Position numbers and translations under genes: made by a program. Of a stretch of 64,000 bases of DNA, positions 19,397 to 40,219 are shown piece by piece; position 1 is the first letter of the stretch; each line of letters begins with the position of its first letter. Under the pieces are notes generated by a model, which saw nothing but the letters and a program-made list of their open reading frames with translations, had not been told where the DNA came from and did not search any database. The DNA comes from a virus: positions 37,736 through 101,735 of IMG/VR virus record IMGVR_UViG_3300012036_000004. One strand, written 5' to 3'.

Positions 19397-19749
19397 CCAC
19401 CCTCAAAGAGAGCATGGACACCGAGAAGCTGAACAATCAGCTCCTCAACCTGACCAACGACCTCAACGGAGTCCTTGGTCTTCGAGCCCTATCTTCCACC
19501 GCCGCCGAGATATGGGTCACTGGTGGCAGCACCAAAAACGAGGTGCTCGCCCGCGCCGAAGAGCATGAAGAGCTGGCTGACGTAGACTTCACCTTCCGAG
19601 AAGAAGTCGACGAAGCCTACTCGCCCGGCGGCGCCACTGACCGACCTCGAACCTGGGAACCTAAAAATGACGACCGAGACAACGACACCGACCCCTTCGA
19701 AGAACTACTCGAGCGCGATCCAAGCAGCCCCCGCACGGTGGACGAGTAA
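19393..19749 (+). CDS. Small acidic unknown protein (118 aa)
   Basis: Starts by ATGA overlap with the primase stop and overlaps the polymerase start by 83 bases. The first ~60 residues are helical with TAAEIWVTGGSTKNEVLARA; the rest is very acidic and Pro/Thr/Asp-rich. Possibly a primase or polymerase accessory. No family is recognised. Confidence 0.65.
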   Translation: MTTLKESMDTEKLNNQLLNLTNDLNGVLGLRALSSTAAEIWVTGGSTKNEVLARAEEHEELADVDFTFREEVDEAYSPGGATDRPRTWEPKNDDRDNDTDPFEELLERDPSSPRTVDE

Positions 19750-22700
19750 CCAAAAGGGGACCTTCTGTAGTACCTGCCCCAACAAAGACGCTTCGTGCCT
19801 GCTGATGGGCCGCTGGTTGAGTCAGGCGAGCATGACCATCATCCTGGCATCGCCGGGGCAAGAATCCATCGACCGTGTGCAGCCGCTGGGGAGCCGAGAC
19901 GAAGCAATCATCGCGCAGCTCATGCAGAACCTGACCGAGAAGCACGGTACAGCCATCGCCTACAACATCGTGTATTTGACAGGAGCAGAATCCCGAAAAG
20001 CCCCCGGCAAAGAGGTGATCGCTGCTTGCTCGCAGTACATGAACCAGAAGCTGCTCGACGCGCGTCGACAATTCGAACACGGCCCGCATGCAGGTCGAAA
20101 CCACGTCCTGGTTCCGCTGGGAAAAGCCTGCACGCAGGCACTTCTTCCTGACGTACGAACCCTCAAAGAGGTTCGCGGAAAAACTGTCGCCACCGAATTC
20201 GGTGGGTACGAGTGGTTGGTCTGTCCGACGTTCAGCAGAGCGCAGCTCTACGTCAAGCCGGGCTACGCTCGAGTGATGAGTCACGACATCTCCAAAGCCT
20301 ACACGCTGTCCCTCAAAGAGGGGCGCGAGGATAAGGTCGACGTCCACTCACTGACGACCGACTACATCATTCCGCAGAACATCGAAGAGGTGCGCGACGT
20401 TTGCACTGACCTGCTCGAGCGTATCGAATCTGGCGACATCACTGCGATGAGCGTCGACATCGAGACGAACACCAAGAACCCGTATCGCACTGACGGTCAC
20501 ACCTCGGTCGTCTCGCTGGCCTGGGACAAGGGGCAGGCTACCGCCATCCTCCTTGACCACCCTCGCTCCTACTACGACGCCGAAGAAGCGTGGGAAGCTG
20601 TGATTCCCATCCTGGAAAGCGACGTCAAGAAAATCTTCCACAACGGAAAGTTCGATCTCCAGTTCCTGCGAAACCGCAAAGGACTCAAGGTCCCCAACCT
20701 GTGGTGGGATACCATTCTTGCCGAGCACTTCCTCGACGAGGACAAGAGCGGTGTCTACGGCCTCAAAGAGGTCATCGGGCTCTACGCTCCCCGTTACATG
20801 GGCTACGAGAAAGAACTTCGAGCGAACTTCGTCAAGAAGGCGCTGGCCGAAGCTAAGGGTCTCGGAGAAGACGAAGACCGCGAACCCGACCACGAAGAAT
20901 CATGGGAGATCATGCCCTTCTTCGCTGACCTCGAATACAAGCCAGTTGCCGAAGACGACAGCATCGACTGGGAAAGTCTTGGAGAGGACGTCCGTATTGA
21001 ACTCTTCGAGAACGAAGTGATTTACCTCAACGCGCACCGCGACGGCGAGAAGAAGTCGAAGACTCGCGCACGAGGTCGCATCCGACGGCGCTGCAAGAAG
21101 TACGACCTCGACCCGCCTGACACCGTCAACGACCGCTCCTTCGACGTCGGCGACAATGGCTACGACGACATCCCGGTCGACATGCTCCTGTGGTACGCCG
21201 CAGTCGACGCTGACGTAACGAGACAGGTATGCGCCGGGCAACGCATGATTGCCGCCCGACGCCAGCGAGACCTGGGCATGACCACGCCGAATGTCACGCT
21301 CCAACGAGACCTGGAGAACGTGATGGCCGACCTGTACGTGCCTGGAACGGATTCACTGTCCACCATGTCGTATCGAGGCACCAAGCTCGACTACGATCTG
21401 CTCGACCAATACGAAGAAGAGATCGGCCAACTTCGAGACGACACACTTCGCATCATCCGAGAGATGGTGTGCCAGCCCGAGTTCAATCCGAACTCCAGCG
21501 CCGAGATGGCAGACCTGGTGGTCAACGTCTTGAGCATCGACCCCGATGCGTTCACCTACACTGCCACGGGAGCCATCAGCGTCACGGACGCCTGGTTGGC
21601 TACACAGCAGGAAGAGTGCGCCGACGAGTTCACGCAGGAAGTCATCTACTACATACGCCTTTACAAGAAGGCAGCGAAGACGATCTCGTCATTCCTCGCG
21701 AAGTTCCGTCGGTTGACTCAGTACGACGGACGTATCCACACCTCGTTCAATCTGAACGGAACCGCGACTGGTCGGCTGTCTTCTTCGTCGCCCAACCTGC
21801 AGAACGTTCCACTGTGGATGTGTCGATTCCCGCCGCACCCCAAGTTCACGAAGGTCTCGAGCCCGGGGTGGAACATCAAGGCATTGTTCATCCCGAGCGA
21901 GCCCGGAAAAGTGTACTTCCAGCTCGATATCTCGGCAGCCGAGATTCGCGTGCTCTGCGCCTACGCAGGCGACGAGCGTCTGATTTCGGCGCTCAAAGCT
22001 GGTCAGGATATTCACTCCTTCGTGGCCTCGCACGTGTTCGACCATACCTACGAAGAGTTCGTGGCTGGAAAGGACACCGACCCCGACCTCAAGCTGAAGC
22101 GAACCGCTACCAAACGCGTGGTGTTCGGCCTGATTTACGGCGCCGGTCCCTACAAGATTGCCGAGCAGATCTACGGCGGTCTGGCTACCGACGAAGCCGA
22201 GCGTGAAACGCAGATTGCCTTCGCGCAGTCTGTCATGGACATGGTCTTCGAGCGCTTCCCGAAGATTCAGGAGTACATCTCCAAGACCATCGCGGAGGTC
22301 CAACTGTTCGACCAGGTCCGAACGTACTTCGGGCGACGTCGTCGCTTCGACCTTCGAAACGCCTCCTGGAAGGAAGCTCGGAAGAGCGAGCGCCAGGCGG
22401 TCAACTTCAAAATCCAATCGTCGGCTTCTGACATCGTCCTCTCGCAGCTCTGTGCGGTCGAGCAAGCCATCAAAGAGATTAGCGGAGAAGTGCTCCTCAC
22501 GGTGCATGACTCCATCGCCGGGGAAATCGATGTCGACAAGGTGCCACTGATGCGTGCCTTCTTCGACCACTATGTCGTGGACGAAGTGAAGCGAAAGTTC
22601 CCCTGGCTGCCCGTTCCGTTCGCCTACGACCTCGAAGTTGGACCTTCGTATGGTGAGCTCGTCGACTTCGGCCTGCTCGAATCCGATCCGGACGACATCC

Positions 22701-22774
22701 CGGACTACGTCCTCAAGAAAGCCCGTCCTCGCATGGAGCGGGCAGGGCTCACCTTCTTCTCGGAGACCGCCTGA
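19667..22774 (+). CDS. Family A DNA polymerase with N-terminal uracil-DNA-glycosylase-like domain (1,035 aa)
   Basis: Residues ~30-215 resemble family 4/5 UDGs: Cys cluster CSTCPNKDASC, then ILASPGQESIDRVQPLG, YNIVYLTGAESRKAPGKEV and VPLGKACTQALL. Next comes a 3'-5' exonuclease with DIE (264-266), FHNGKFDLQFL and YAAVDADVTRQV. The polymerase domain has motif A FQLDISAAEIRVL (Asp 754), motif B KR..FGLIYGAG (Tyr ~824) and motif C VHDS (946-949), where the usual HDE is HDS. It is the likely replicative polymerase. The glycosylase-like part might sense or remove uracil, or may only bind DNA. The start overlaps the previous gene, but the Cys cluster requires it. Confidence 0.93.
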   Translation: MTTETTTPTPSKNYSSAIQAAPARWTSNQKGTFCSTCPNKDASCLLMGRWLSQASMTIILASPGQESIDRVQPLGSRDEAIIAQLMQNLTEKHGTAIAYNIVYLTGAESRKAPGKEVIAACSQYMNQKLLDARRQFEHGPHAGRNHVLVPLGKACTQALLPDVRTLKEVRGKTVATEFGGYEWLVCPTFSRAQLYVKPGYARVMSHDISKAYTLSLKEGREDKVDVHSLTTDYIIPQNIEEVRDVCTDLLERIESGDITAMSVDIETNTKNPYRTDGHTSVVSLAWDKGQATAILLDHPRSYYDAEEAWEAVIPILESDVKKIFHNGKFDLQFLRNRKGLKVPNLWWDTILAEHFLDEDKSGVYGLKEVIGLYAPRYMGYEKELRANFVKKALAEAKGLGEDEDREPDHEESWEIMPFFADLEYKPVAEDDSIDWESLGEDVRIELFENEVIYLNAHRDGEKKSKTRARGRIRRRCKKYDLDPPDTVNDRSFDVGDNGYDDIPVDMLLWYAAVDADVTRQVCAGQRMIAARRQRDLGMTTPNVTLQRDLENVMADLYVPGTDSLSTMSYRGTKLDYDLLDQYEEEIGQLRDDTLRIIREMVCQPEFNPNSSAEMADLVVNVLSIDPDAFTYTATGAISVTDAWLATQQEECADEFTQEVIYYIRLYKKAAKTISSFLAKFRRLTQYDGRIHTSFNLNGTATGRLSSSSPNLQNVPLWMCRFPPHPKFTKVSSPGWNIKALFIPSEPGKVYFQLDISAAEIRVLCAYAGDERLISALKAGQDIHSFVASHVFDHTYEEFVAGKDTDPDLKLKRTATKRVVFGLIYGAGPYKIAEQIYGGLATDEAERETQIAFAQSVMDMVFERFPKIQEYISKTIAEVQLFDQVRTYFGRRRRFDLRNASWKEARKSERQAVNFKIQSSASDIVLSQLCAVEQAIKEISGEVLLTVHDSIAGEIDVDKVPLMRAFFDHYVVDEVKRKFPWLPVPFAYDLEVGPSYGELVDFGLLESDPDDIPDYVLKKARPRMERAGLTFFSETA

Positions 22775-23070
22775 TGCCTATTTACGCCCTCGCCATGGAG
22801 ACACCCGGTCGCTACATAGTCGGCCAGAGCAGTGCCGCCCCTGACGCTATCCTGTCGACGAACACCGTCGCTCTTCAGGACGCCGCTCACCTCACGGTGC
22901 TCAAAGAACAGAGCATCCTGACGCCGATCGACGTGCTCGATAACTTCCACGCGAAGGTGTCGAGCTACATTGGCTTCGGGGTGCTCAACGAAGACTTCAG
23001 TTCCATCTACGAGTCGTGGCTCGAGATGCACAAAAATCCGCCGGATTTTGAGGTACAAGAGGGTGAATGA
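22774..23070 (+). CDS. Unknown small protein after polymerase (98 aa)
   Basis: Starts on the base shared with the polymerase stop (TGATG). MPIYALAMETPGRYIVGQS looks like a folded beta start, with helical segments later (IDVLDNFHAKVSSYIG). Last gene of the plus-strand replication block. Its stop codon lies inside the first arm of the hairpin-rich element at 23064. No family is recognised. Confidence 0.7.
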   Translation: MPIYALAMETPGRYIVGQSSAAPDAILSTNTVALQDAAHLTVLKEQSILTPIDVLDNFHAKVSSYIGFGVLNEDFSSIYESWLEMHKNPPDFEVQEGE

Positions 23071-23590
23071 ACTAGTACAGACACTTAGCTGTGGGCGATG
23101 TTTCGTCGCCATATCATAGCAGTACTTTAGTACTGGCCGCCGGCTTGAAGCCGAGCACCAGGCCGCCTCGAGCTCACTACTTCGGCGGAAATGGTAGTTC
23201 ATTCATACGCACGCGCTAGACACTGAGGTGATCAAGGACGATCCCTCGAGGCGATGTTTCGTCGCCACATTTTGTTTCACTATCTCTTCACCTGGTTTAG
23301 CAACCAGGTGTAGAATTAGTAGCGCACTTGAGTTGGCACCGATCTCGGTGGGCGATGTTTCGTCGCCATATGAAGTAGGACCGGGAGCAAACGCGAGCGA
23401 GGTCTTCCTGGCCACGCGGTTTTCGTCGCATACGCTCCTCAACCCAGCTAGGCCTGGAAGACCAGGCTCAGCACAGCAACTCACCTCTGATTGGCTCCCG
23501 TTTGTGGAGGGCGATGTTTCGTCGCCATATCTCCCAGACACTTTCGTGTCTGAGCTTTTCTCGAGCTCCTCCGGGAGCTGCGTGATCATG
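23064..23590 (+). ncRNA. Hairpin-rich, repeat-containing non-coding element (candidate structured RNA)
   Basis: No convincing gene lies here. The 17-mer GGCGATGTTTCGTCGCC occurs exactly at 23094, 23250, 23351 and 23510, with a degraded copy near 23416. Read as plus-strand RNA it is a seven-pair stem with a UUU loop, one pair being G-U; on the minus strand that pair becomes C-A, which favours plus-strand RNA. Other hairpins: CAGTAC/GTACTG (23120-23135), CACCTGGTT/AACCAGGTG (23289-23310), CACCG/CGGTG (23337-23350), CCTGG/CCAGG (23453-23466), CAGACAC/GTGTCTG (23535-23552) and AGCTCC/GGAGCT (23564-23579). An 11-base arm at 23064 pairs perfectly with 23195-23205, enclosing the first set. Alternatives: terminator cluster or packaging site next to terL. 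Confidence 0.6.
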
Positions 23591-23594
23591 GCAA

Positions 23595-25190
23595 TCAGAG
23601 AGACATTGGGTAGAACGCTACCTGACCGGTGGCAATCTGCATCGCAAGGCGCCCGAATACCTGGGCGTGAAGAGCATCGTCAGGGGTGGCCGGGAAGCAG
23701 TTCCAAACCCGGCGCCCCTGACCCTGTTTCGTAACTTCCTCATACTCAGCGAGGATATCCTGAATCGCGAGCTTCATCTGCTTCTGCTTCGCAAAGACGA
23801 CGCGGCCTCGCTTGTAGTCCATCATCATCGAATCGATGGCTGCCGTCCGGTCCGCCATATACCGATCTGTGTTGTTCCATCGGAGCATCTTCGAGATCGA
23901 GCCGTACTGAATCTGAACGACCTTGTTTGCCCCAAGCGCGTCGACCAGCATTGCGTTGGAGACTGCGCCAACTCCGGCGTCACCAGCGACCAGAGAGACC
24001 TTGTAGTCTCGACAGATCTCGATGATTTCCTTCACATCATTAACCGGGTTCGAGGTCGGGAAGATGTGGTAGTACAGCGTCTTCATCTGGCCGTTCGGCA
24101 GCAAACCCCAGACGTGAATCGCTGTTCGAGACGTGAACGTCGAGGAGCCGCCTCCCGACCAGTCGACCCCTGCGACAATCTTCGAGACATGCTTGAAGAT
24201 TTTGGGGTCTGGCTTGCGCTCAATCGTGTAGTTCCGGCAGAGCGCTTCGAGCTCTTCGAGCGACACCATGCGCGTGCCGATCGCGTCGCTCATCCCCAGT
24301 ACCTCGTTCCTGAACTGCGAGTCTGGGTAGGTGTTGTACTTGTGAAGGATACGGTCCCACCGGGCCTGCACCTCATTGTTCTGTGGCATGATGAGCTGCG
24401 GGATGTGGAACCCGCGGACGTAGGCGCCCGGATTCATGCTGTACCACTGCCCGTCTCGAGGCCGCAGCTTCTTGCCGCAGTTGACGCAGATAACGCCCGA
24501 CTTACCGATCGAGCGGACCGTGGTCACGTAGTTCCATTTGTTGCACCCCGTGCACTTCATCATCCACACGTCTTGCGTGGATTGCTGCCAAAGGAACTCC
24601 ATGGTGTTTTCCATCGACTTCGGTGTCCCGAAGTACCAGGTCCACCCGTGCTCCGACTCTGCCATGCACTCGTTGACGACCGGCACCACCGACTTGTAAA
24701 TGATGTCCTGGACCTCGTCCCATACGACCTGGTCCGCCGAGACGCCACGTGCGCGGTCCGGGTCGTCCTGGGCGTACGAAAGCACGACCTCCGACCCGTT
24801 CGAGAAGTGTTTCATCAGCACGTTCATCGGCATCGATGTGCTGGTGTAATTCTTGGAGATCAACGGAGAATAGGTGATCGCCTTCTGGAGACGGGAGTGC
24901 GAAAACCGAGTCGTCTGCTGCTGTGTAGGCGACACAAACAGCGTTCGAAAGTAGTCCTGCGAAACCGAGTTCGTCAGGATCATGTTGCAGCCAGTAGTCG
25001 ACTTAGCGACCTGGCGGCCGCATTTCATCACCAGCTCTTGGTGGTACCCATCGTAGATGTCTCGGTAAAACGGGTAGTTCTCAAACGAGAACTTCTTCCC
25101 GTCCAGTACCACCATAGCTTCCGTGAGTTGAGACCGGGTAAACTGCCCGACACTCTCTTCCTCGCGTCTAATCGACTGGAACACACTCAT
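23595..25190 (-). CDS. terL: Terminase large subunit (531 aa)
   Basis: The packaging motor and headful or cos nuclease. ATPase motifs: Walker A GRQVAKST (58-65) and Walker B VVWDE (~155-159). A zinc ribbon with CTGC and CVNCGKK follows (~245-280), then an RNase H-like nuclease with VAGVDWSGGG (~350), VAGDAGVGA and a C-terminal PDDALHA. I start at ATG 25190 (MSVFQSIRREEESVG); longer in-frame starts to 25292 would run through the opposite-strand gene at 25189, with which the two start codons share two bases. It lies next to the hairpin-rich element, which could be its recognition site. Confidence 0.94.
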   Translation of the reverse strand: MSVFQSIRREEESVGQFTRSQLTEAMVVLDGKKFSFENYPFYRDIYDGYHQELVMKCGRQVAKSTTGCNMILTNSVSQDYFRTLFVSPTQQQTTRFSHSRLQKAITYSPLISKNYTSTSMPMNVLMKHFSNGSEVVLSYAQDDPDRARGVSADQVVWDEVQDIIYKSVVPVVNECMAESEHGWTWYFGTPKSMENTMEFLWQQSTQDVWMMKCTGCNKWNYVTTVRSIGKSGVICVNCGKKLRPRDGQWYSMNPGAYVRGFHIPQLIMPQNNEVQARWDRILHKYNTYPDSQFRNEVLGMSDAIGTRMVSLEELEALCRNYTIERKPDPKIFKHVSKIVAGVDWSGGGSSTFTSRTAIHVWGLLPNGQMKTLYYHIFPTSNPVNDVKEIIEICRDYKVSLVAGDAGVGAVSNAMLVDALGANKVVQIQYGSISKMLRWNNTDRYMADRTAAIDSMMMDYKRGRVVFAKQKQMKLAIQDILAEYEEVTKQGQGRRVWNCFPATPDDALHAQVFGRLAMQIATGQVAFYPMSL

Positions 25191-25386
25191 GAAACTACTC
25201 AAGTTTGCAATTCTAGCGTGGGCAGCGATCGCGCTTCTCGGCGCGTGCATTGCCCACCCGGGTCTCGTGTTCCTGCTTATCATCGCAGGCACGCTTTACG
25301 GCCTGTTCACTCTCACGTTTGGGTCTCTCGATTACTGGCGTCGTTACCACGACCACGTATACGGAGACTCGAGCGATCACCAATAA
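25189..25386 (+). CDS. Small membrane protein (65 aa)
   Basis: MKLLKFAILAWAAIALLGAC is a signal-like helix whose LGAC could serve as a lipobox. A second hydrophobic helix (LVFLLIIAGTLYGLFTLTF) and a polar tail follow. Its ATG overlaps the opposite-strand terL start. It leads the accessory block and ends 27 bases before the MoxR-like gene. Two-helix form would suit a holin-like or inner-membrane role, but no family is recognised. Confidence 0.6.
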   Translation: MKLLKFAILAWAAIALLGACIAHPGLVFLLIIAGTLYGLFTLTFGSLDYWRRYHDHVYGDSSDHQ

Positions 25387-25413: not shown

Positions 25414-26760
25414 ATGACACAAGCATCACCATCCAGCAACAAGACGCTCGACTACGCAGAGGAGATCGGCCTGGTTCCGGTGAGCCTCAAGACGGCCGCC
25501 TGGGTCATCCAGCTCTGTGCATACGACAGGCACGTGCCGCTTCTCATCGGCGAAACATCGACCGGCAAGACGGCCATTCTACGTCAGCTCGCTGAGTACA
25601 ACGAGCTCGACTTCCTCTTCTACGGTCTGGCGCACAAGGAGGCGTCTGATCTCACCGGTCCGATGATGCCTTCTTCGGACGGCGTCACCTTCCAGCACCT
25701 GCCGCCGGCGAACATCCCCATCAAGGGACACGCCGGCGAGGACCGGTTCGTCATGATGGACCTGGCAGAGGTGAACCGTGCCGACAGCACCGTGCACAAT
25801 GCTGCCTTCCAGGTATGGACCGACCGACAGCTCGGCACGCACGAGCTCGGAGAGAATGTCATCGTCGTCTCCGATATGAACCCCCCGGACGGTGACTACG
25901 CCGTCACGTCGAGCTTCAGCAGTGACCCGGCCATGCGTCGGCGTACCTGCCAGATCGTCGTCAACTTCTCGGTCAACGATCTGTTGGCATGGGCGAAGGA
26001 CCCTGCGTCTGCGACGCAATTCAACATGCCGAAGCTCAGCGAAGACGGCGTTCTCGAGCCGGTAGGTTTACACCGTAAACGCCCGTGGCATCCGAGCGTT
26101 GTTGAGTTCCTGCAAGCCAACGTCGACATCGCGCTGGACAGACAGGCGCGCGACGCGGGCAAGATATTCGCCTGCCCGTCGACTTGGCACGCCTGCTCCG
26201 ATACGCTCTACACGTTGGAGCGTCTCGAGATCGACACATCCAGCGCCAGTATGCAGCTTGCTCTTCTGACCAAGCTCGCCGGTCACATCGGTCACACGCA
26301 CGCCAAGTCGCTGCTCGAGTACCACAACCGTGAGGCGTCGGCGCTCGATCCGCGCGACATGCTCCTGCACTTCGCTGATGAGGATAATCGCTCTTGCCGA
26401 CGCGTCGAGAAGCTGCTCGAAGCCGGACATGCCGGTCACGTCGCCGGTGCGCTCAACAACCTGGCCATCGTGTGGGCTGAAGGTGTCGAGGCCGAAGAAT
26501 TCACGTCAGAAGACTGTGCACCGCACCTCGCCAAGATCTTCAACATGGTCCCGACCGACGTCGGCGGGCAGCTGTTGGACGCCATCGTAGACGCAGACTC
26601 AAAGGTCGGCGCGAGTACGGGCGGGCCTTCTCAGCGCTCCACCGGTCTTGTCCGTCTGCTGCACAAACAGCCAGCGTTCAAAGAGTTTCGGGATCGTCGC
26701 ACGGAGAACCTGCGCGACAAACAGCAGCGCGAGCGCGTCGCTGAGGAAGGCCTAGAGTAA
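25414..26760 (+). CDS. MoxR-family AAA+ ATPase (448 aa)
   Basis: Walker A GETSTGKT (46-53), a Walker B-like VMMDLAEVNRAD (~110), sensor-type VVSDMNPP (~150) and SFSSDPAMRRR with the arginines expected downstream. MoxR ATPases remodel or activate partners that carry VWA domains; a VWA protein is encoded at 28448 in the same direction. AGGGAAAACC precedes the ATG. The GTTTAC palindrome at 26066 is inside, in a different frame from the other genic copies. The C-terminus is helical and charged. Confidence 0.88.
   Translation: MTQASPSSNKTLDYAEEIGLVPVSLKTAAWVIQLCAYDRHVPLLIGETSTGKTAILRQLAEYNELDFLFYGLAHKEASDLTGPMMPSSDGVTFQHLPPANIPIKGHAGEDRFVMMDLAEVNRADSTVHNAAFQVWTDRQLGTHELGENVIVVSDMNPPDGDYAVTSSFSSDPAMRRRTCQIVVNFSVNDLLAWAKDPASATQFNMPKLSEDGVLEPVGLHRKRPWHPSVVEFLQANVDIALDRQARDAGKIFACPSTWHACSDTLYTLERLEIDTSSASMQLALLTKLAGHIGHTHAKSLLEYHNREASALDPRDMLLHFADEDNRSCRRVEKLLEAGHAGHVAGALNNLAIVWAEGVEAEEFTSEDCAPHLAKIFNMVPTDVGGQLLDAIVDADSKVGASTGGPSQRSTGLVRLLHKQPAFKEFRDRRTENLRDKQQRERVAEEGLE
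26066..26080. repeat. GTTTAC-ACC-GTAAAC palindrome, site 3
   Basis: Perfect six-base arms inside the MoxR gene; here the reading frame gives GLHRK, unlike sites 1, 2, 4 and 5, so protein sequence cannot explain the repeat. Confidence 0.7.
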
Positions 26761-28447: not shown

Positions 28448-30154
28448 ATGCGAATGAATGACGACAAAAGCCCGCTTAAAGTAGCAGAGCAAGAGGGCAG
28501 TGAGCAAGCAGTACGAAAGGAAGACCCCTTTCGTTCCTGGATTCTGTTCTTCTTGCACAGCTCGACGCAAGCAAAGAATCCGAGGCTGAGCTTCTACGCC
28601 CGCGTGCTATCCGGCATGCAGACTCACGCAACGAAGCAGGTCGGCTACATGGCCGTCGGCTTTCTGCACGGCAGCTACGTGCTGCTGTACAACCCCGAGT
28701 GGACCCGGCGAACAACCTACACGGAGTTCGTCTGTACGCTCGCGCACGAATCGATGCACATCATTCTGCGTCACATCCCGCGAAGTATGCGCCGTCTCGC
28801 AGTTCTCGACCCGAACGATCGAGCCGCTGCGCACCACATCATGAATGTGGCTATGGACGCGACGCTCAACGAGCAGATCGAGCGACACTTTCCCCACATG
28901 CGGACCGGTGCTTCCGGTTACTGGGTTTTCCCAGAGCCGCTGGGGTTGCCTAAAAACGCTGCGTTCGAGGACCTCTTCGAAATCATGTGGAGTTACCGCC
29001 AGGCCCTCATGCAGCGCATGCAAGAAATTCTGGAGGAACGGAAGCAGAAATGCGACGAAGAGGGACAAAGCACCCCGGCGCCAGGCGGCGAAGAGGAAGG
29101 CGACGGCGAGGGTCAGGGTCAAGGCGACGGCGAGGGTCAGGGTCAGGGTCAAAGCCAGGGCGACGGTCAGTCCGGCTCCGGCTCCGGCGAGAGTCAGAAG
29201 TCTCAGGACTCCTGGGCTCCAGGTACCGACGCCTTCGAGAATACCGCCCAGGCAATGGCCGACCTCGCGGAGGCAGGGGCACACGAGTGGTCGATTCGAC
29301 CGGCCGAAGACGGGCAGCCCACCGGAGAGTCGGACGCAGACTACTCTGGCATGGACGCCGGAGAGCTCGACGCCAATGCGACGCTTCTGGAAGAAGCCGG
29401 AAAAGAGCTGGTTAAGCACGCGGTACGTGAGCAAGAAAACGCGCGCGGTACCGTACCGGCCGACCTTCGCGTCGAGATTGACGCCATGCTCGAAGAGCCA
29501 ATCGTGCCATGGGCACGTCTACTCAAGAACATGGTTGTGGCACGTATGCTTGCTCGGCGAAAAAATACCATGACCCGTCCACACAAGCGGCGCCACATTC
29601 TGTGGTTCTTCAATGAGGACACGGGCCTCATTGAGCGATACGCGCGTGCCATTCCACAGTACCCCGGACATACCCGGGACCGCACGTACGTCGCTCTCTT
29701 CGCCATCGACACCTCGGGCTCGATGTCCGAGAACGACATCAAAGAGGGCCTCTCCGAAATGAAAGGAATCCTCGACGCGTATGAGGATGCGCATCTCATC
29801 GCCGTTCAGTGCGACACGCGCATCTCCTCGGTGGAGGTCGTTGGGCCCGACATGGATGTTGACGAGTACGTCAAAACCATCGGCCGCACGTCATACGGCG
29901 GCACGACGTTCGACGACCCGTTCATGCTTGCGAACTACATTCGCGACGAGGGCAGGCCACCTCGCCTTCCGAACCCAGAAGAGACGCGGCGTCTTCTGCG
30001 CGACTACGACACTGTCGACGTGGTGGTCTACCACACCGACGGTTACGCCCCGATGCCCAGCGACAAGGTGCGCCCCAGTTGTCCGACCATCTGGCTCACG
30101 ACCAGTAACTCGCGCACTTCGGACATTTCATTTGGACACGTCATCGAGAGGTAA
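28448..30154 (+). CDS. Metallopeptidase-like/VWA-domain protein (568 aa)
   Basis: The N-terminal part has a zinc-binding HExxH (HESMH, residues 100-104) inside TLAHESMHIILRH, then a Gln/Gly/Asp-rich linker (~205-255, GQGQGDGEG repeats). The C-terminal VWA-like domain has the MIDAS motif DTSGSMS (421-427), SYGGTTFDDPF and VVYHTDG. This order matches the COG3864-type proteins that pair with MoxR ATPases. GGGAG lies upstream of ATG 28448. With the ATPase at 25414 it probably forms a chaperone or maturation machine; the substrate is unknown. Confidence 0.88.
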   Translation: MRMNDDKSPLKVAEQEGSEQAVRKEDPFRSWILFFLHSSTQAKNPRLSFYARVLSGMQTHATKQVGYMAVGFLHGSYVLLYNPEWTRRTTYTEFVCTLAHESMHIILRHIPRSMRRLAVLDPNDRAAAHHIMNVAMDATLNEQIERHFPHMRTGASGYWVFPEPLGLPKNAAFEDLFEIMWSYRQALMQRMQEILEERKQKCDEEGQSTPAPGGEEEGDGEGQGQGDGEGQGQGQSQGDGQSGSGSGESQKSQDSWAPGTDAFENTAQAMADLAEAGAHEWSIRPAEDGQPTGESDADYSGMDAGELDANATLLEEAGKELVKHAVREQENARGTVPADLRVEIDAMLEEPIVPWARLLKNMVVARMLARRKNTMTRPHKRRHILWFFNEDTGLIERYARAIPQYPGHTRDRTYVALFAIDTSGSMSENDIKEGLSEMKGILDAYEDAHLIAVQCDTRISSVEVVGPDMDVDEYVKTIGRTSYGGTTFDDPFMLANYIRDEGRPPRLPNPEETRRLLRDYDTVDVVVYHTDGYAPMPSDKVRPSCPTIWLTTSNSRTSDISFGHVIER

Positions 30155-30155
30155 C

Positions 30156-30863
30156 ATGCTGAAACTCAAGATTTCCCGGCGCAACGTCCCCGAGTTGGTG
30201 CCGTTCACTGTCGTGTACCTGTACAAAGAGGACGAGCGCGAAGCCATCCGCGCTGCGTTCCCCGCCCTGTTCGAGTTGAGACCCTCTCAGTTGAGGCTCA
30301 AGAACTGGGCGCAGGTGCACGTTCACTCTCAAGAACCCGGATGGAACCACGATGCCCCCGCCTACGAAGACAAGCATGCAGACACGCTCATCGAAGTCCT
30401 GCCTGAGTTCTTCGAGATCGAGTCGGACTGGTACATGGCTGTGCCGACCGTACTGATGTCTGGCTGGCCTCGCATCAAGGAGGCGGAGCGTAGCTCAGGT
30501 GATCCGCTCGACGCTCCGCCGCCTCGGGGTCCTTCCGGTCATGGATCTCCGAAGTACTTCGGTCACCGCTCTGCAGGGAATTGGCGCGGCCGTCGAAACC
30601 AGCCGCCGCGACCTGAGCCCCAAGTCCTGCTCGACCCTGTGCTTGCTGTACAGGGTGAGCCCGACCGAGGCGTCTGCTCTGAGTGTCCTCGATACGCGCA
30701 TAACGCCGCCGGTCGATGTTTCTTCGGCGATCCGATCTGCGCCAAGCATGTGCACACCATCGCCGGTCCAACCTTTCTGCAGCACCTCGCTGCGTACCTA
30801 GAAGAAAACGGAGAATCAGATGACGTACCAGGCAGGGAGTCTAGTCTCCCTGGCGATTCCTGA
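30156..30863 (+). CDS. Unknown protein with C-terminal Cys/His cluster (235 aa)
   Basis: Starts one base after the VWA stop (GAGAGGTAAC before ATG). The N-terminal ~100 residues look folded (MLKLKISRRNVPELVPFTVV). A Pro/Gly/Arg-rich linker leads to CSECPRYAHNAAGRCFFGD followed by CAKH, probably a small zinc finger. The 3' end overlaps the reverse transcriptase by 44 bases. It may be a partner of either neighbour. No family is recognised. Confidence 0.7.
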   Translation: MLKLKISRRNVPELVPFTVVYLYKEDEREAIRAAFPALFELRPSQLRLKNWAQVHVHSQEPGWNHDAPAYEDKHADTLIEVLPEFFEIESDWYMAVPTVLMSGWPRIKEAERSSGDPLDAPPPRGPSGHGSPKYFGHRSAGNWRGRRNQPPRPEPQVLLDPVLAVQGEPDRGVCSECPRYAHNAAGRCFFGDPICAKHVHTIAGPTFLQHLAAYLEENGESDDVPGRESSLPGDS

Positions 30864-31884
30864 GGGATTGCCAGACGGCATGCCCGCCGTATTCGACGAC
30901 ATGAGCTTCGCACTGTCGTTGGGGCTGCAGAACCGAACGGTTTGGTGGCTCATACACGCATCGAAAATCGACTGCATCGCAGCAGGAAGGGGAGCCTACG
31001 ACGTATTTCGGGTTCCCAAAAAAAGCGGCGGGTCTCGCCAAATTCACGCACCTCGAGCCACGCTCAAGCGAGTCCAGCGTGTCCTCTTGCAGGTCTACTT
31101 CAACAAACTCCCGGTCGGTGACTGGGTCGGAGCCTACGTCCCTGGCCGGGACATGGTTTACTCCGTAAACAAGCACACGAACAAAGATGTGGTCGTCTCG
31201 CTCGACCTGTCCAATTTCTTCGGCTCCACCAAGCGGACGTGGGTTCGTGAATGGCTCGAAGGCCTGGGCTACGGTATGGAGGTCGTCGTGCCAATGTCGG
31301 GTCTGATCACCGTGCCAGTTCGTCGACGCCATGGTGTGACGTACGTCGTACCTCAGGGCGCACCCACGTCCGGCGCGGTCACTAACCACGTGGCTTCTGC
31401 TCGACTCGACGCGCCTTTGATGGCGTACCTGGAGAATGCAGGTCTGACTGACTGGGACTACACCCGGTACGCTGACGACCTGACGATCTCGTACAATGGG
31501 TTTCTCCCCAAAGACGAGTTTGATGTGTTCATGGAGGGGGTACGTCAGGTCGTCAAAGACTCTGGCTACTATCTCAACCACAAGAAGACCCGCGTCGCCG
31601 TGTCGCGTCCCGCAGAGAGCGCTCCGCAGCGTATGCTCGGCATGAGCATCCACAAAAAGCCCAACGTCCCCCGAGAGAAGAAGCGCCTGTTGCGTGCACG
31701 TGTTCACCACATGGTGACGCAACGACACCCCTGCTACGACGCGGACAACATCTTTGCCGCGTCCCGTCAGCGATCGCAGGCGCTGGATAAACTCTTCGCG
31801 GAGCTCAGATACTGGGTCCGCATTTCCCCTCAAACAATCGAGCCGCTTTTGACGCAGCTCGAGGAGACATTTCCTAACGAATGA
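30820..31884 (+). CDS. Retron-like reverse transcriptase (354 aa)
   Basis: RT motifs in order: VPKKSGGSRQIHAP (RT1), VVVSLDLSNFFGS (catalytic Asp ~129), VPQGAPTSGAVTN (~177-189), YTRYADDLTIS (YADD 217-220), GYYLNHKKTRV and RMLGMSIH. The retron-type X motif NAxxH appears as VNKH and the VTG motif as MLG, so it is close to, but not a typical, retron RT. GGAG lies seven bases upstream of ATG. The upstream overlap leaves no room for an msr-msd RNA. A GTTTAC palindrome sits at 31156, encoding the VYSVN just before the catalytic core. Target RNA and role are unknown. Confidence 0.9.
   Translation: MTYQAGSLVSLAIPEGLPDGMPAVFDDMSFALSLGLQNRTVWWLIHASKIDCIAAGRGAYDVFRVPKKSGGSRQIHAPRATLKRVQRVLLQVYFNKLPVGDWVGAYVPGRDMVYSVNKHTNKDVVVSLDLSNFFGSTKRTWVREWLEGLGYGMEVVVPMSGLITVPVRRRHGVTYVVPQGAPTSGAVTNHVASARLDAPLMAYLENAGLTDWDYTRYADDLTISYNGFLPKDEFDVFMEGVRQVVKDSGYYLNHKKTRVAVSRPAESAPQRMLGMSIHKKPNVPREKKRLLRARVHHMVTQRHPCYDADNIFAASRQRSQALDKLFAELRYWVRISPQTIEPLLTQLEETFPNE
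31156..31170. repeat. GTTTAC-TCC-GTAAAC palindrome, site 4
   Basis: Perfect arms inside the reverse transcriptase gene (in frame VYSVN). Confidence 0.7.
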
Positions 31885-33569
31885 TGGACTACGAAGATGA
31901 AGATTTCTACTTCTGCGGGACTCACGTCGAGTACGCCGAGGAGTATCGCCCTGAGCATTGTTCCGACGATTTCCGCCCCGAAGACGCCTCTGAAGATTGG
32001 TCTCCGCCAAGAGAAGCTCCGTCTTCCTACCGAACGCGGCAAAAAGCGCCGCTGGTGGCGCTCAGCATTCCGCCTCGAGTCGAGGACCCGGAGAAGAGAA
32101 CCATGGCGTTGCTTGAGGAGATGCAATCACGCATGCGCGCTGAGTTTAGTCTCGACTTCGATCCGACGCTCTATCTCACTCTCCTGCCTCGCGTTCCCGG
32201 GCAGCTTTACCGGTGGATCAACCAGGACCGGTTGCGCGATTTCTACGACAATCACACGCATCCGGGCGTCGACATCTACCGGAAAAAGAATGACCAAAAC
32301 GAATGGGTCTACGCGAAGGCATCCGTCGCACCGCTCCGGTTTGACGAGTCCTGGCAGGCAGTCATCCATTTCGATCCGGCTGTGTTCGCGACGGAAGACT
32401 GGCGAGCAGGGTTTTCTGAGTACGCAATTCACGCCCTGTATCAGGGCGAGCTTCACTCCGTGTCTTTCCAAGACATGCACGACGCCTGCCCTCTCATCGG
32501 GGTCCTCATCGACCCTGGCTTCGATAGCTGCGTAGGCTGCGCACACAACGATATATTCTGCCGAACTCGATTCCTCCGGGAAGCTTTGGACGCCGTGAGC
32601 CCCGACATCCTGGATCGCACGCTCTGGTTCCGGCAATGGCGGCTAGGTAGCGGAGCAGTCAGTCTTCGAGGCGACGCCAGGTGGTCCTCGAAGCAGGTGT
32701 CCAACTTCCTGGATAAAATCGACATCGACGGGTGGTACGGAGTAAGCACCAACGCCGTCAACGCAGGTCGGGACAGCTCGATCTCCCGGATAAAGATGGC
32801 GTGGCCGTCCGTTGATCGTCAGACAAAGAAGAGACGTGATGCAGCGAAAAAAGGCGCCAAGACACGCAAGGCACATGACGAAGTGTGCGGCAGAGGCGAC
32901 GAGGCCTGCGTGCTTAGAAAGTACGACTGCATGGCGTGGAGAGGCTACAGCGTGCGGTGCACGCACCGACGGCAGCACGAAGACGAGCTCAACGAAGAAG
33001 CACTCGCGCGGCTTTCGAAAATGGGTCAGAAGACGCCCGTTCACGAGATCCAGCGAAGCGCTGTGCTGAAAATGAATGAGTTCTCCTACGTCGCCGACAC
33101 AGGACGTATTCGAACCGGTTACTTCGCGGGCGTCTCACGTCCACGCAGCCAGGGTAAAGTACTCTGGCGCATGATGCGCGGCACGCAGCGAGATCGCATG
33201 CTCTACACCTTCCCAAGCTGGGAAGCCATGCGTCGGTGGTTTCGGCGATGGGCTCCTTGGGAGCTTTCACAGCTTGATGAGGCAGATGCTCGAGCCGAAG
33301 AGATCGAAGTCTCTGACCTGATACGGTGCGTGTTCTACGCCGCTCAGAGCATGACCAGCATCAAGGTCAGCGGAGGTTTCGGGGGCTCGTCTTACGCCGT
33401 GGAGTGTTACGAGCCTATCGTATCAACCCGAGACGACGGCACGTCTTACGTCACCGCCGTCATGCCTCAGGGCGGCGGCTACAGTCTCGGACTCCTCAAG
33501 AACATGAAAGATTTCTGGCATGTCCACCGGCGGGGCTTCACACGTCAAGACGGGATTTTGCCTGCATGA
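31881..33569 (+). CDS. Large unknown protein after the reverse transcriptase (562 aa)
   Basis: ATGA overlap with the RT stop shows coupling. The N-terminal ~70 residues are acidic and probably disordered. Further on are a Cys set CVGCAHNDIFC (~215-225), a basic stretch QTKKRRDAAKKGAKTRK (~312-330) with nearby CGRGDEAC and CVLRKYDC-type cysteines, and a Trp-rich region MRRWFRRWAPWELS. Basic and Cys-rich parts suggest nucleic-acid binding. It may act with the RT. No family is recognised. It ends one base from the convergent gene. Confidence 0.7.
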   Translation: MMDYEDEDFYFCGTHVEYAEEYRPEHCSDDFRPEDASEDWSPPREAPSSYRTRQKAPLVALSIPPRVEDPEKRTMALLEEMQSRMRAEFSLDFDPTLYLTLLPRVPGQLYRWINQDRLRDFYDNHTHPGVDIYRKKNDQNEWVYAKASVAPLRFDESWQAVIHFDPAVFATEDWRAGFSEYAIHALYQGELHSVSFQDMHDACPLIGVLIDPGFDSCVGCAHNDIFCRTRFLREALDAVSPDILDRTLWFRQWRLGSGAVSLRGDARWSSKQVSNFLDKIDIDGWYGVSTNAVNAGRDSSISRIKMAWPSVDRQTKKRRDAAKKGAKTRKAHDEVCGRGDEACVLRKYDCMAWRGYSVRCTHRRQHEDELNEEALARLSKMGQKTPVHEIQRSAVLKMNEFSYVADTGRIRTGYFAGVSRPRSQGKVLWRMMRGTQRDRMLYTFPSWEAMRRWFRRWAPWELSQLDEADARAEEIEVSDLIRCVFYAAQSMTSIKVSGGFGGSSYAVECYEPIVSTRDDGTSYVTAVMPQGGGYSLGLLKNMKDFWHVHRRGFTRQDGILPA

Positions 33570-35970: not shown

Positions 35971-36221
35971 GCCTTCGGCGAGTACCGATCGCAGATACCG
36001 TTCGGGTTGATGGAGCCCATCACAATGGCGCACGCCCCGTCCGGTTGGTAGTGGCTGCACTTCGCGCAGTTGGCGTCGGGGTGCGGCGAGCTATCCATGT
36101 ACGCGACGTCTTCGCGCGTGTACTGCTTGCTCTTTCGCTCAGCCGGTACGGGTTCATCCGAAGGGTCGCCGTGGTACGCAAGCTTCATGAAAAGATTGTA
36201 TCCCTGCTCGAACGCCGTCAT
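35967..36221 (-). CDS. Tagged small Cys protein (84 aa)
   Basis: Begins with the shared tag MTAFEQGYNLFMKLA. The C-terminal half carries CAKCSHYQPDGACAIVMG...CDRY: four cysteines in a CxxC-x7-C-xn-C pattern like small iron-sulphur or zinc modules. It is the only tagged gene away from the 49.9-53.6 kb cluster. It overlaps the next gene by four bases. Role unknown; virion targeting is inferred from the tag. Confidence 0.7.
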   Translation of the reverse strand: MTAFEQGYNLFMKLAYHGDPSDEPVPAERKSKQYTREDVAYMDSSPHPDANCAKCSHYQPDGACAIVMGSINPNGICDRYSPKA

Positions 36222-36700
36222 TCAGATGCCTTGGATTGGATGTACACGCCTAGCCCGACGCCCGCGCCGAGCCCTACCACGAGTGCCGTGATGAGCCAGG
36301 GCAGTCCCCCGCCCCAGATCGACATCGCCTCTGCTTCGGCGGCTCGAGTCGTTGCGTCTTCATATTTTACGAAGAGCTCGCTGTATGCTGTCTCCCAGCG
36401 TACGGCGTCCTCTTCGTAAACGCCGGCAGCCTTCTCAGAAGCCGCGGCGCTCTTTTTTAGCTCAGACACGATCGCGGGCCACAATGTCATGTGTGCGTCG
36501 AAAAGCCACGCATACTGCACGCGCATCTGGAGGTACCGCTTGAAGTTTTCCTGGTCGAAGCACTTCATGGGCGGCTCGCCACACATCGTCGTACTTGGCT
36601 TCTCGACGAACTCGAGCTCAGGCGCACTGGCCGGCTCTTGCGCAAGGAGCGGTGCCGGGACCAGGAGCAAGACAATCAGAAGTGGCGCAACAAGCTTCAT
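36218..36700 (-). CDS. Secreted, C-terminally membrane-anchored protein (160 aa)
   Basis: Signal peptide MKLVAPLLIVLLLVPAPLLA with a likely cut after AQ; no lipobox. A helical middle (residues ~75-125) and a C-terminal membrane helix (LPWLITALVVGLGAGVGLGV) follow. The topology suggests a periplasmic coiled coil tethered to the inner membrane. With the next gene it may form a lysis (spanin-like) pair, but the missing lipobox argues against a classical outer-membrane spanin. Confidence 0.65.
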   Translation of the reverse strand: MKLVAPLLIVLLLVPAPLLAQEPASAPELEFVEKPSTTMCGEPPMKCFDQENFKRYLQMRVQYAWLFDAHMTLWPAIVSELKKSAAASEKAAGVYEEDAVRWETAYSELFVKYEDATTRAAEAEAMSIWGGGLPWLITALVVGLGAGVGLGVYIQSKASE

Positions 36701-37448: not shown

Positions 37449-40219
37449 GTATCTGGGTACGCCGAAACCGTTGTAAGCGGAGTGATCGCCTGCGGGATGT
37501 ATTCGCCAGTCGAGAATCCGCGGTTGTTGACAATCCAGTGACCCGATCCGCGTCCCATCTCGTACCGGTACAGCCGCTCATTGTCTCCGCCACCAATGTC
37601 GATTCGAACCAGGGTCAGGTACACGCCGTCGGTTTGCATCTCGTAGAAGAACTGCGAACCGGCGAGCCCCAGGTCGAACTCGAACGCACGCATAGGCTGC
37701 TTGACGGTGTCTGTCTCGAATATTGTCGTACCGTGCAGAGAGTAGCCGCGTACGAAAGCGACGGGTGCAGACTGGTCGGATAGCGACACAAAAAATTCGT
37801 TCTTCGTTCGCGCCAGGCATATCCGGTCTGGTGTGTCAATGCCGAGATCGTCGTCATACATCTCCTGATCTCGTTCGTCGTGGTACCGAAATGAAACCTT
37901 CGGGTCTGAAGACGAGTTGTCTGCGCCGGCGACCGCGACGCCTCGCGCGTTGACGGCAATGTCGTGTACGCTCGTCCAGCTGTCGTACTGCGCCATGTAG
38001 TTCGCGTCGATCGTACCTCCCTGGAGACGTCCAATTGCCAGGCTGTTGGATCCGCTATCCGTCCAGATAGCAATAAACTCTCCCCAGACGTCGATGTACA
38101 GTCCGTTGCCATTCAGGTTCCCGCTCTCCGTGGCGAGCGTAGAGACCGACGCCGTGTCGATAACCGCGAACGCGACGCCTGCTGGTACGCTACCTGCTCC
38201 GTCCGCCTCGTCGCCTACGTAATAGATCCAGCCATTCTGCATGACCATGTCACGGATCCGATCGCCCGGAGTCCCTGAGTGCGTGTAGACTCCCGACGTG
38301 CGCCAGGACGTGTCCAGGACCGGCGGGTCTTGTTCGATGTCCCAGAGCTCAATCTCGGAGTCGTATGCCACCGCCAACGAATACCCGTCACTCGCAAGCG
38401 ACGTGATGCCTGTCCACGCCGGCGACGAGCTGAGCGTGATCGTGGCGTGAAGAGATAGATCGCGCTGGTTGTAGAGTGACACCTTGTCGGTAAAACCTCC
38501 TGAAGTCGCTCCGGGTTCACCCGGAATGATCACGTAGCGGCCATCAGTCGAAAGCGCCGACCAGCCTTCGGTATTTGCGACATCACCAGACCAGTCTCCA
38601 GTGTCGAAAACGACGCCCGCGGGAAATCCGGCACCCTCCGTGTCCTTTGCCAGAAAAAGAGGAAATCGAGCGTCAGGGTCGTTGACCGCGCCATCTCGAG
38701 ACATCGCGGACTTTTCAAAGATGTCCTGGAGCGATGTGTAGCTTCTGAGCCGGTCGTAAATCGCGTCGATACGGTCTTCAACCGTGTTACCGTAGTTACC
38801 GTCCGTGACAGTGGCGAGTTGCGTGTAGTCGTCGGCGATATTCGCGATTCGACCCGCGCCGCTGCCGCCCACATAGGGTGTCCCGAGACCTTGCTGGAGA
38901 AGTGCGAATTCGCCGTCCAAGTCCTCCAGCGCCCCTTGCGCACTGTCGGTGGCAGCGTCGATTACCTGGAACGCGCCCGGGTTGTCGATGCCGATGTGTT
39001 CCGAGCCCTGAGCTGCGACGTCCCCTGGAGACGGAGGTGCGGTGATACCTCGATTCAAATCGAGACGAAGCAGCCCCAGATGCGCGTCCAACTGCGCAAT
39101 CTCGGCGTCGACACTATCGAACACATCCTGCGCCGCACTTCCGGTAATGAGAAGATACCCGGTCGTGTCGATGGGCATCACCGACGCATCGCCAGCCCCC
39201 AGGATAAGCGTGGAGCTCAGGTCACCCACCGTGACGTTGGGCTGCATCACGTACCCGCTGCTCAGCACGAATCGGTCATCGATGACGCGACCCAGCACGA
39301 GAGAGTTTGGTGCCTTGTCGGGCTCTCGAGTCAGGTTCACCAGCGACGCAGATGGAATGAGGTGGTTATTCGCGTTCTCCTCGACGCTCTCGCGACGCAG
39401 TTGCTGGGTGTCGTACCAGATCGCCAGGACGTCCCCTTCTCTCAAAAGGTTGTCCGCGCTGGCGGCGAAAAAGGCCGACAACTCAGCTGGGCTAATCAGG
39501 TGACGAACAGTGTCGAGACCGCCCTCCAGCGATTGGGCCGTGTCGAATGCAAACTCACCCGGTGCAGGCGCGTAGATAACCTCGACCAGCGCATTTGCTA
39601 CAGCGTCAGCAACGATGGCGTCATCGATCTGTCCCCAGGTGTGCGGAACCGTCGAGTCGTACTCGACGACGATCTGAGTTCGACCTGGCTGAAGCGCCGG
39701 GTTTGCGACAGTCGCTTCCCCGTTCACTTCGACGTTGATGGTCCCTGATCCGGGGACGTCTACCGTCTCGAAGGTGATTGTGTTCCCGCCCTCGAAGTCC
39801 AGCTTCTTTGAAATCAGAACGAAGTCCGTTCCGTTGCCATCGTCGAACCGATCCGATGCGTACAGGCTGGGGAAAGACCCGGCGCCTTCAAAATCTCGCC
39901 CTCGCCCAACGCCTGCGCCGTACAGTGGCCAGAGCCCCCAGACAGCGCCGCCCGTCGTGGTGAGCGTGCCGGTGCCGACCCCGTTCCAGGTAAGCGTACC
40001 GCTCAAGACCACATGGGCCATCGTGCCCCGGTCGATGTCTCTCGCCCATCGGTTCTCGTTGATCTCGGCCCGTGCAACTTCGGTGCGGTTGCGCAAATTC
40101 TGTTCTGCGCGCGCCAGCGTCACCTGGTCGAGGTCTTCACCATTCTGGATGGGTTGAATGGACTCCGGACCCGCTTCGCCCGTATCAGTACCCGACTCAT
40201 AGTTGATGGTCTTACTCAT
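37445..40219 (-). CDS. Tail fibre-like protein with repeated propeller-like strands (924 aa)
   Basis: N-terminal region (~1-120) has helices then Gly/Thr-rich strands (TLTWNGVGTGTLTTTGGAVW) as in fibre baseplate-anchoring parts. The middle contains VFDSVDAEIAQLDAHLGLLRL coiled coil. The C-terminal ~400 residues show repeating blocks such as GYSLAVAYDSEIELWDIEQD and GVAVAGADNSSSDPKVSFRY, a WD/Kelch-like beta-propeller pattern. Such a head could bind receptor. It is the largest gene next to the baseplate set. Fibre identity is inferred from architecture and position. Confidence 0.65.
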   Translation of the reverse strand: MSKTINYESGTDTGEAGPESIQPIQNGEDLDQVTLARAEQNLRNRTEVARAEINENRWARDIDRGTMAHVVLSGTLTWNGVGTGTLTTTGGAVWGLWPLYGAGVGRGRDFEGAGSFPSLYASDRFDDGNGTDFVLISKKLDFEGGNTITFETVDVPGSGTINVEVNGEATVANPALQPGRTQIVVEYDSTVPHTWGQIDDAIVADAVANALVEVIYAPAPGEFAFDTAQSLEGGLDTVRHLISPAELSAFFAASADNLLREGDVLAIWYDTQQLRRESVEENANNHLIPSASLVNLTREPDKAPNSLVLGRVIDDRFVLSSGYVMQPNVTVGDLSSTLILGAGDASVMPIDTTGYLLITGSAAQDVFDSVDAEIAQLDAHLGLLRLDLNRGITAPPSPGDVAAQGSEHIGIDNPGAFQVIDAATDSAQGALEDLDGEFALLQQGLGTPYVGGSGAGRIANIADDYTQLATVTDGNYGNTVEDRIDAIYDRLRSYTSLQDIFEKSAMSRDGAVNDPDARFPLFLAKDTEGAGFPAGVVFDTGDWSGDVANTEGWSALSTDGRYVIIPGEPGATSGGFTDKVSLYNQRDLSLHATITLSSSPAWTGITSLASDGYSLAVAYDSEIELWDIEQDPPVLDTSWRTSGVYTHSGTPGDRIRDMVMQNGWIYYVGDEADGAGSVPAGVAFAVIDTASVSTLATESGNLNGNGLYIDVWGEFIAIWTDSGSNSLAIGRLQGGTIDANYMAQYDSWTSVHDIAVNARGVAVAGADNSSSDPKVSFRYHDERDQEMYDDDLGIDTPDRICLARTKNEFFVSLSDQSAPVAFVRGYSLHGTTIFETDTVKQPMRAFEFDLGLAGSQFFYEMQTDGVYLTLVRIDIGGGDNERLYRYEMGRGSGHWIVNNRGFSTGEYIPQAITPLTTVSAYPDT

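Follow-up and report, generated by a model that had tools for sequence, protein, structure and literature searches.

The 64,000-nucleotide (nt) stretch of DNA analyzed here (the window; positions 37,736 to 101,735 of the IMG/VR virus record IMGVR_UViG_3300012036_000004) carries a retron-type reverse transcriptase (RT) gene and, 7.2 kb upstream on the same strand, a tandem array of four retron-like non-coding RNA (ncRNA) units. With a probability of roughly 0.82, the two form a split, multi-template phage retron in which the RT and its RNA templates are separated. This reading is carried by the homology of the RT and its intact active site, by the anatomy, conservation and covariation of the units, by synteny and by the association of RT and array in related phages, all of which are observations.

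The array at the polA-terL junction

The sole sizeable gap near the RT gene (23071-23594, 524 nt) is located between the open reading frame (ORF) that follows DNA polymerase A (polA) and the gene for the terminase large subunit (terL). It contains four exact copies of GGCGATGTTTCGTCGCC, a hairpin with a 7-bp stem and a UUU loop, where 0.34 matches are expected even if up to three mismatches are allowed, and it folds far more stably than shuffled sequences (z -6.8). A formal scan recovered four units in 580 nt of the window and none in 500 shuffles (Table 1). As in retron ncRNA, the units have complementary a1 and a2 arms and a priming-type G at the end of a1, and they fold with the a1/a2 stem formed at almost no cost; in unit 2, an alternative pairing joins 23221-23229 and 23342-23350. 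Rfam gave no match at the gathering threshold. The initial annotation had described the RT as lacking an upstream msr-msd, which holds for its immediate surroundings, where nothing adjoins the gene and the module leaves no gap, and fails further away, where the array is a strong candidate. The suggestion that the enzyme may use another RNA is thereby supported, and template-free synthesis, also proposed, becomes unneeded since the array candidate would supply a template.

Arrays at the polA-terL junction are present in about 30 related phage contigs and comprise from one to about ten tandem units. The units of the relatives differ in sequence and share a common plan, in which a1 is immediately followed by a G, a hairpin whose YWW triloop has a G-C closing pair lies about 15-35 nt further on, and more hairpins and a second G precede the a2 arm complementary to a1. 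The exact hairpin of the window is not tandemly repeated in the relatives; the conservation of the array resides in anatomy, not in sequence. The order of the parts matches the published description of retron RNA (PMC6868368), in which the priming G lies within a1 or just beyond its 3' end, commonly in the context TAGC or CAGC, and in which region Y of the Ec86 RT binds a UUU-triloop stem.

When 21 upstream regions were scanned for this plan, it occurred mainly in polA-terL gaps; 105 shuffled regions together contained 12 hits. Taking the best stem around each hairpin and demanding no flanking base, a G after a1 together with a G before a2 was found in 50 of 71 cases, compared to 104 of 1041 with shuffled flanks. 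The strict version of the unit finder overlooked arrays with a UAG loop or a G-U closing pair and was later relaxed. As a positive control, the same finder located conventional retron RNAs immediately 5' of other RTs, including prophage ones (L379, L393, L394, L403, L383). A covariance model built from 11 units of two phages matched only arrays in 1.75 Mb of sequence, which included 29 VWA-positive, RT-less loci; among the matches were extra units in the source arrays, units of a third phage and, marginally, window unit 3 (23328-23483).

The array might also have nothing to do with the RT and be a structured element of DNA or RNA, for example a bidirectional terminator or a site of packaging or replication beside terL and polA. 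Its position between convergent genes and the exact fourfold, iteron-like repetition of the window hairpin would suit such an element. However, the stems vary between units and genomes yet stay paired, the G rule is strand-specific and fits retron priming anatomy, and conventional retron RNAs display the same pattern. Moreover, in two phages whose junction has no gap (G016 and G021), arrays of three and two units with arms of 8-15 bp are located elsewhere, away from terL and on the strand of the RT. An element of this kind is considered improbable. Single candidate units in two other phages (G015, G018) are less certain.

Some results weigh against joining the RT and the array into one system or limit the evidence for it. 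Among loci recruited through the terminase, a unit was present at the junction in 32 of the 39 that bear the RT, and one unit was also found in three of the five RT-less loci (about three phages, at least one of the units being weak), a sample too small to carry weight; the association falls short of proof, the RT-less comparison being small. The finder detected no junction array in the RT-bearing loci L332, L333, L336, L339, L343, L348 and L367, some of which have a 170-nt structured gap only. Covariation among 11 units from two phages, in which every cell (100%) is paired and both sides vary in 13 of 14 pairs, was counted on units chosen by a rule that requires pairing, so that the a1/a2 figure is partly circular and inflated. 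The match of the covariance model to window unit 3 is marginal (E-value 0.73); the model was trained only on two other phages. Finally, the VTG motif is not kept in the window RT. Two of 16 validated retron RTs have a single substitution in this triplet (V to I, T to H) and a double change is reported in none (PMC6868368); the triplet is usual in retron RTs rather than absolute.

As a separate observation, three phages (L257, L258, L260) in which the RT is far more diverged (115-145 bits) and c7, the gene that precedes the RT in the window, could not be detected still have three to four array units between polA and terL.

Between relatives, the array changes far more quickly than the genes around it. 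Between relatives whose terL DNA is 67-83% identical, array DNA is 41-78% identical, and several pairs are near the level of unrelated sequences. In the last unit of L350 and L353, a1, the hairpin and the bases following the priming G are almost unchanged. Such fast divergence would fit a role in an arms race, which is suggestive only, as rapid drift of structured ncRNA can have other causes as well. In some phages, a2 alone is repeated: G013 has one a1 (GGTACTG) and four AG-CAGTACC copies, and L353 has five similar a2 copies, as if a single msr served several msd cassettes. A search of the array sequences against their own genomes for donors or targets gave no notable match, which speaks against a role of the array in donating DNA to genes of the phage itself.

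The reverse transcriptase and its neighborhood

The RT gene is an open reading frame with an ATG start. Motif A (D129), YADD (217-220) and PQGAPTS are present and RVT_1 of Pfam is matched at 6e-16, in agreement with the core motifs listed in the initial annotation. The 44-base overlap with the preceding gene that it reported is exact (30820-30863). In 25 aligned phage homologues the RT starts at the equivalent Met, and in most of them it overlaps or abuts the preceding gene, so that the start is not mis-called. D129, YADD, H119 and L273-G274 are invariant among these homologues, which were collected by searches relying on the YADD-region motif, so that dead copies may have escaped; single-protein searches failed to recover the RT family. 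The alterations of NAXXH to VNKH and of VTG to MLG, noted at the outset, are real and represent a clade trait because H119 and L273-G274 do not vary in the relatives. In region X, the H is kept in all 25 and the N is not, a residue that is also missing from two of 16 validated retron RTs (PMC6868368). Region Y starts with MLG in the window and with xLG throughout the clade, G274 being invariant. Many RTs of the family (L025-L045) have a Cys/His-rich, zinc-ribbon-like insert directly after the region X histidine, which the window RT does not have.

Profile and fold comparisons both place the enzyme with retrons. The best PADLOC profile is RT_XIII (188 bits), followed by RT_III-A (164 bits); the match to retron_St85 of NCBIfam falls under its cut-off. 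All 25 phage homologues matched retron profiles. For the AlphaFold2 model (predicted local distance difference test 90, predicted template modeling score 0.85), the first 18 fold matches in the PDB are all retron RTs. The protein thus has the sequence and fold of a retron-type RT with intact catalytic residues. A tree of 109 RTs groups the 42 members of the phage family in a single clade (Shimodaira-Hasegawa-like approximate likelihood ratio test 97), separate from bacterial and prophage retrons; this quick tree, built from sequences gathered by similarity search, does not settle the sister group of the clade. Assignment to an unassigned group, as initially considered, is therefore half right: the enzyme belongs to a phage clade of its own outside the sampled bacterial and prophage retrons, but profile, fold and RNA anatomy mark it as retron-type. 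PADLOC type XIII resembles it in being the top-scoring profile and differs in that the window RT belongs to the separate phage clade and lacks VTG, and in that its tested neighbors, c7 and c5, match no PADLOC model.

A diversity-generating retroelement (DGR) or another non-retron RT could be imagined from the phage setting and the nearby minus-strand genes, which are possibly structural. Such an identity is hardly credible: no template and variable repeat pair was found within 25 kb, the array lacks a notable match in the rest of its genome, and profile and fold rank retrons above DGR entries and those of defence-associated reverse transcriptases (DRT). Outside the family, mutually similar viral contigs (L038 and L046; also L366 and L375) encode a VTG-type retron RT with an N-terminal Cys-rich extension.

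The order of the module is the same in more than 30 contigs, namely an AAA ATPase (+), two minus-strand genes, a VWA gene (+), c7 (+), RT (+), c5 (+) and minus-strand genes. In the window, it leaves no intergenic room for an msr-msd. The listed frame before the RT (29781-30863) extends into the VWA gene, the real gene being c7. The latter is conserved as a protein, and outside coding sequence there is no room for an RNA 5' of the RT; an RNA concealed in the c7-RT overlap was ruled out, as this stretch is conserved c7 coding sequence. The RT might still act on a different template, for instance an RNA within the c7/RT coding region, or on none, as reported for DRT1 (PMC13275509), with the array serving something else. 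Positions 30480-30819 of c7 do fold slightly more stably than shuffles (z -2.2) with weak codon bias, but c7 is a conserved protein across them, the finder detected no retron-like unit in the c7/RT region, and the array is a fitting template without extra assumptions. This alternative is regarded as very unlikely. Under the preferred reading of a split retron, the ncRNA is not in the cassette of the RT, and genes on both strands lie in between; because of this distance of 7.2 kb, the system is a variant rather than a standard retron.

Profile searches, including PADLOC models, gave no family match for c7 or c5. Eight Cys residues of c5 are invariant among 16 homologues, and its predicted structure is a low-confidence, unreliable model. 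No effector is recognizable near the RT, where the conserved neighbors c5 and c7 have no known domain. The window is drawn from a 101.7-kb record, which represents a large tailed phage that encodes ParB, a primase, DNA polymerase A, a terminase and a baseplate J protein; a near-identical contig (99.9% over 13 kb) comes from a different record. Elsewhere in the window, a 24-nt tandem repeat in the Gly/Gln-rich part of the VWA gene (29097-29144) holds two of the 11 differences from that contig, a 25-nt inverted repeat (36366-36420; 84% complementary, 5-nt spacer) lies within a minus-strand gene (36218-36700), and the first 3.1 kb contain ordinary ORFs.

Table 1. Coordinates of the array, its units, the RT and neighboring genes in the window.
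Feature	Position	Strand	Description
DNA polymerase A	19667..22774	+	left landmark of array site
Four tandem retron-like ncRNA units	23063..23600	+	538 nt, between ORF after polA and terL, 7.2 kb upstream of RT, same strand
Unit 1	23063..23206	+	a1 23063-23074, then G; UUU-loop hairpin 23094-23110; a2 23195-23206
Unit 2	23213..23325	+	a1 23213-23218 (GCGCTA); hairpin 23250-23266; a2 23320-23325
Unit 3	23329..23483	+	a1 23329-23335; hairpin 23351-23367; a2 23477-23483
Unit 4	23485..23600	+	a1 23485-23493; hairpin 23510-23526; a2 23592-23600 (overlaps last terL bases)
Terminase large subunit	23595..25250	-	right landmark of array site
AAA ATPase	25414..26760	+	conserved module
VWA/putative metallopeptidase protein (DUF2201)	28448..30154	+	conserved module
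c7	30156..30863	+	235 aa, conserved CxxC..C..C cluster, no known family; 5' of RT, overlapping it
Retron-type RT	30820..31884	+	354 aa; profiles, alignment, AlphaFold2 model, PDB fold matches
c5	31881..33569	+	562 aa, no known family; 3' of RT, 4-base overlap

A putative one-enzyme, many-template system

In the proposed mechanism, the RT would be translated from the conserved gene run VWA-c7-RT-c5, while the four tandem ncRNAs would be transcribed from the array. In each unit, a1 would pair with a2, synthesis would be primed at the G immediately after a1 through a 2'-5' linkage, the UUU-triloop hairpin would be the handle bound by the RT, and the hairpins preceding a2 would be copied into single-stranded DNA (ssDNA). 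A single RT may thus yield several different multicopy single-stranded DNAs (msDNAs) during infection. Transcription, priming, cDNA synthesis and the use of the array by this RT rather than by another enzyme are inferred.

Validated retrons such as Retron-Eco1 (Ec86) share with this system the RT fold, the a1/a2 arms, the priming-type G after a1, the UUU-triloop msr hairpin and the hairpins before a2. They differ from it in having a single RNA in the RT cassette and an effector nearby, whereas in the phages the RNAs, one to about ten in tandem, lie several kb from the RT and no effector can be recognized. Retron-Nex1 (Ne160), reported to have several apparently duplicated msr-msd repeats and no RT within a kilobase (PMC6868368), offers a precedent from bacteria for msr-msd repeats that lack an RT close by; in the phages, by contrast, the arrangement is conserved across a family and the RT is identified in the same genomes. 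No report of phage retron RNA arrays was found in searches of open-access text, and other journals may hold one.

The RT is probably a core gene of a family of large, uncultivated phages, in which one enzyme would produce from a tandem array a number of distinct msDNAs that evolve rapidly and, in some phages (G013, L353), one msr would be shared by several msd cassettes with the same a2. A role of the msDNAs in engaging a fast-changing partner, such as a host or rival-phage factor, is weakly favored over a structural role because rapid divergence of the array can go along with retention of msr parts. Retrons have been treated as single-RNA cassettes, mostly of bacterial defence; here, the RT is kept across a phage family and the putative templates are separate and multiplied, which would explain why an RT may belong to a retron even where no msr-msd adjoins its gene. 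Such a natural one-enzyme, many-template ssDNA system could serve recombineering. The copied part apparently changes fast and the RT-binding part can be kept, which suggests that these phages use msDNA for their own ends.
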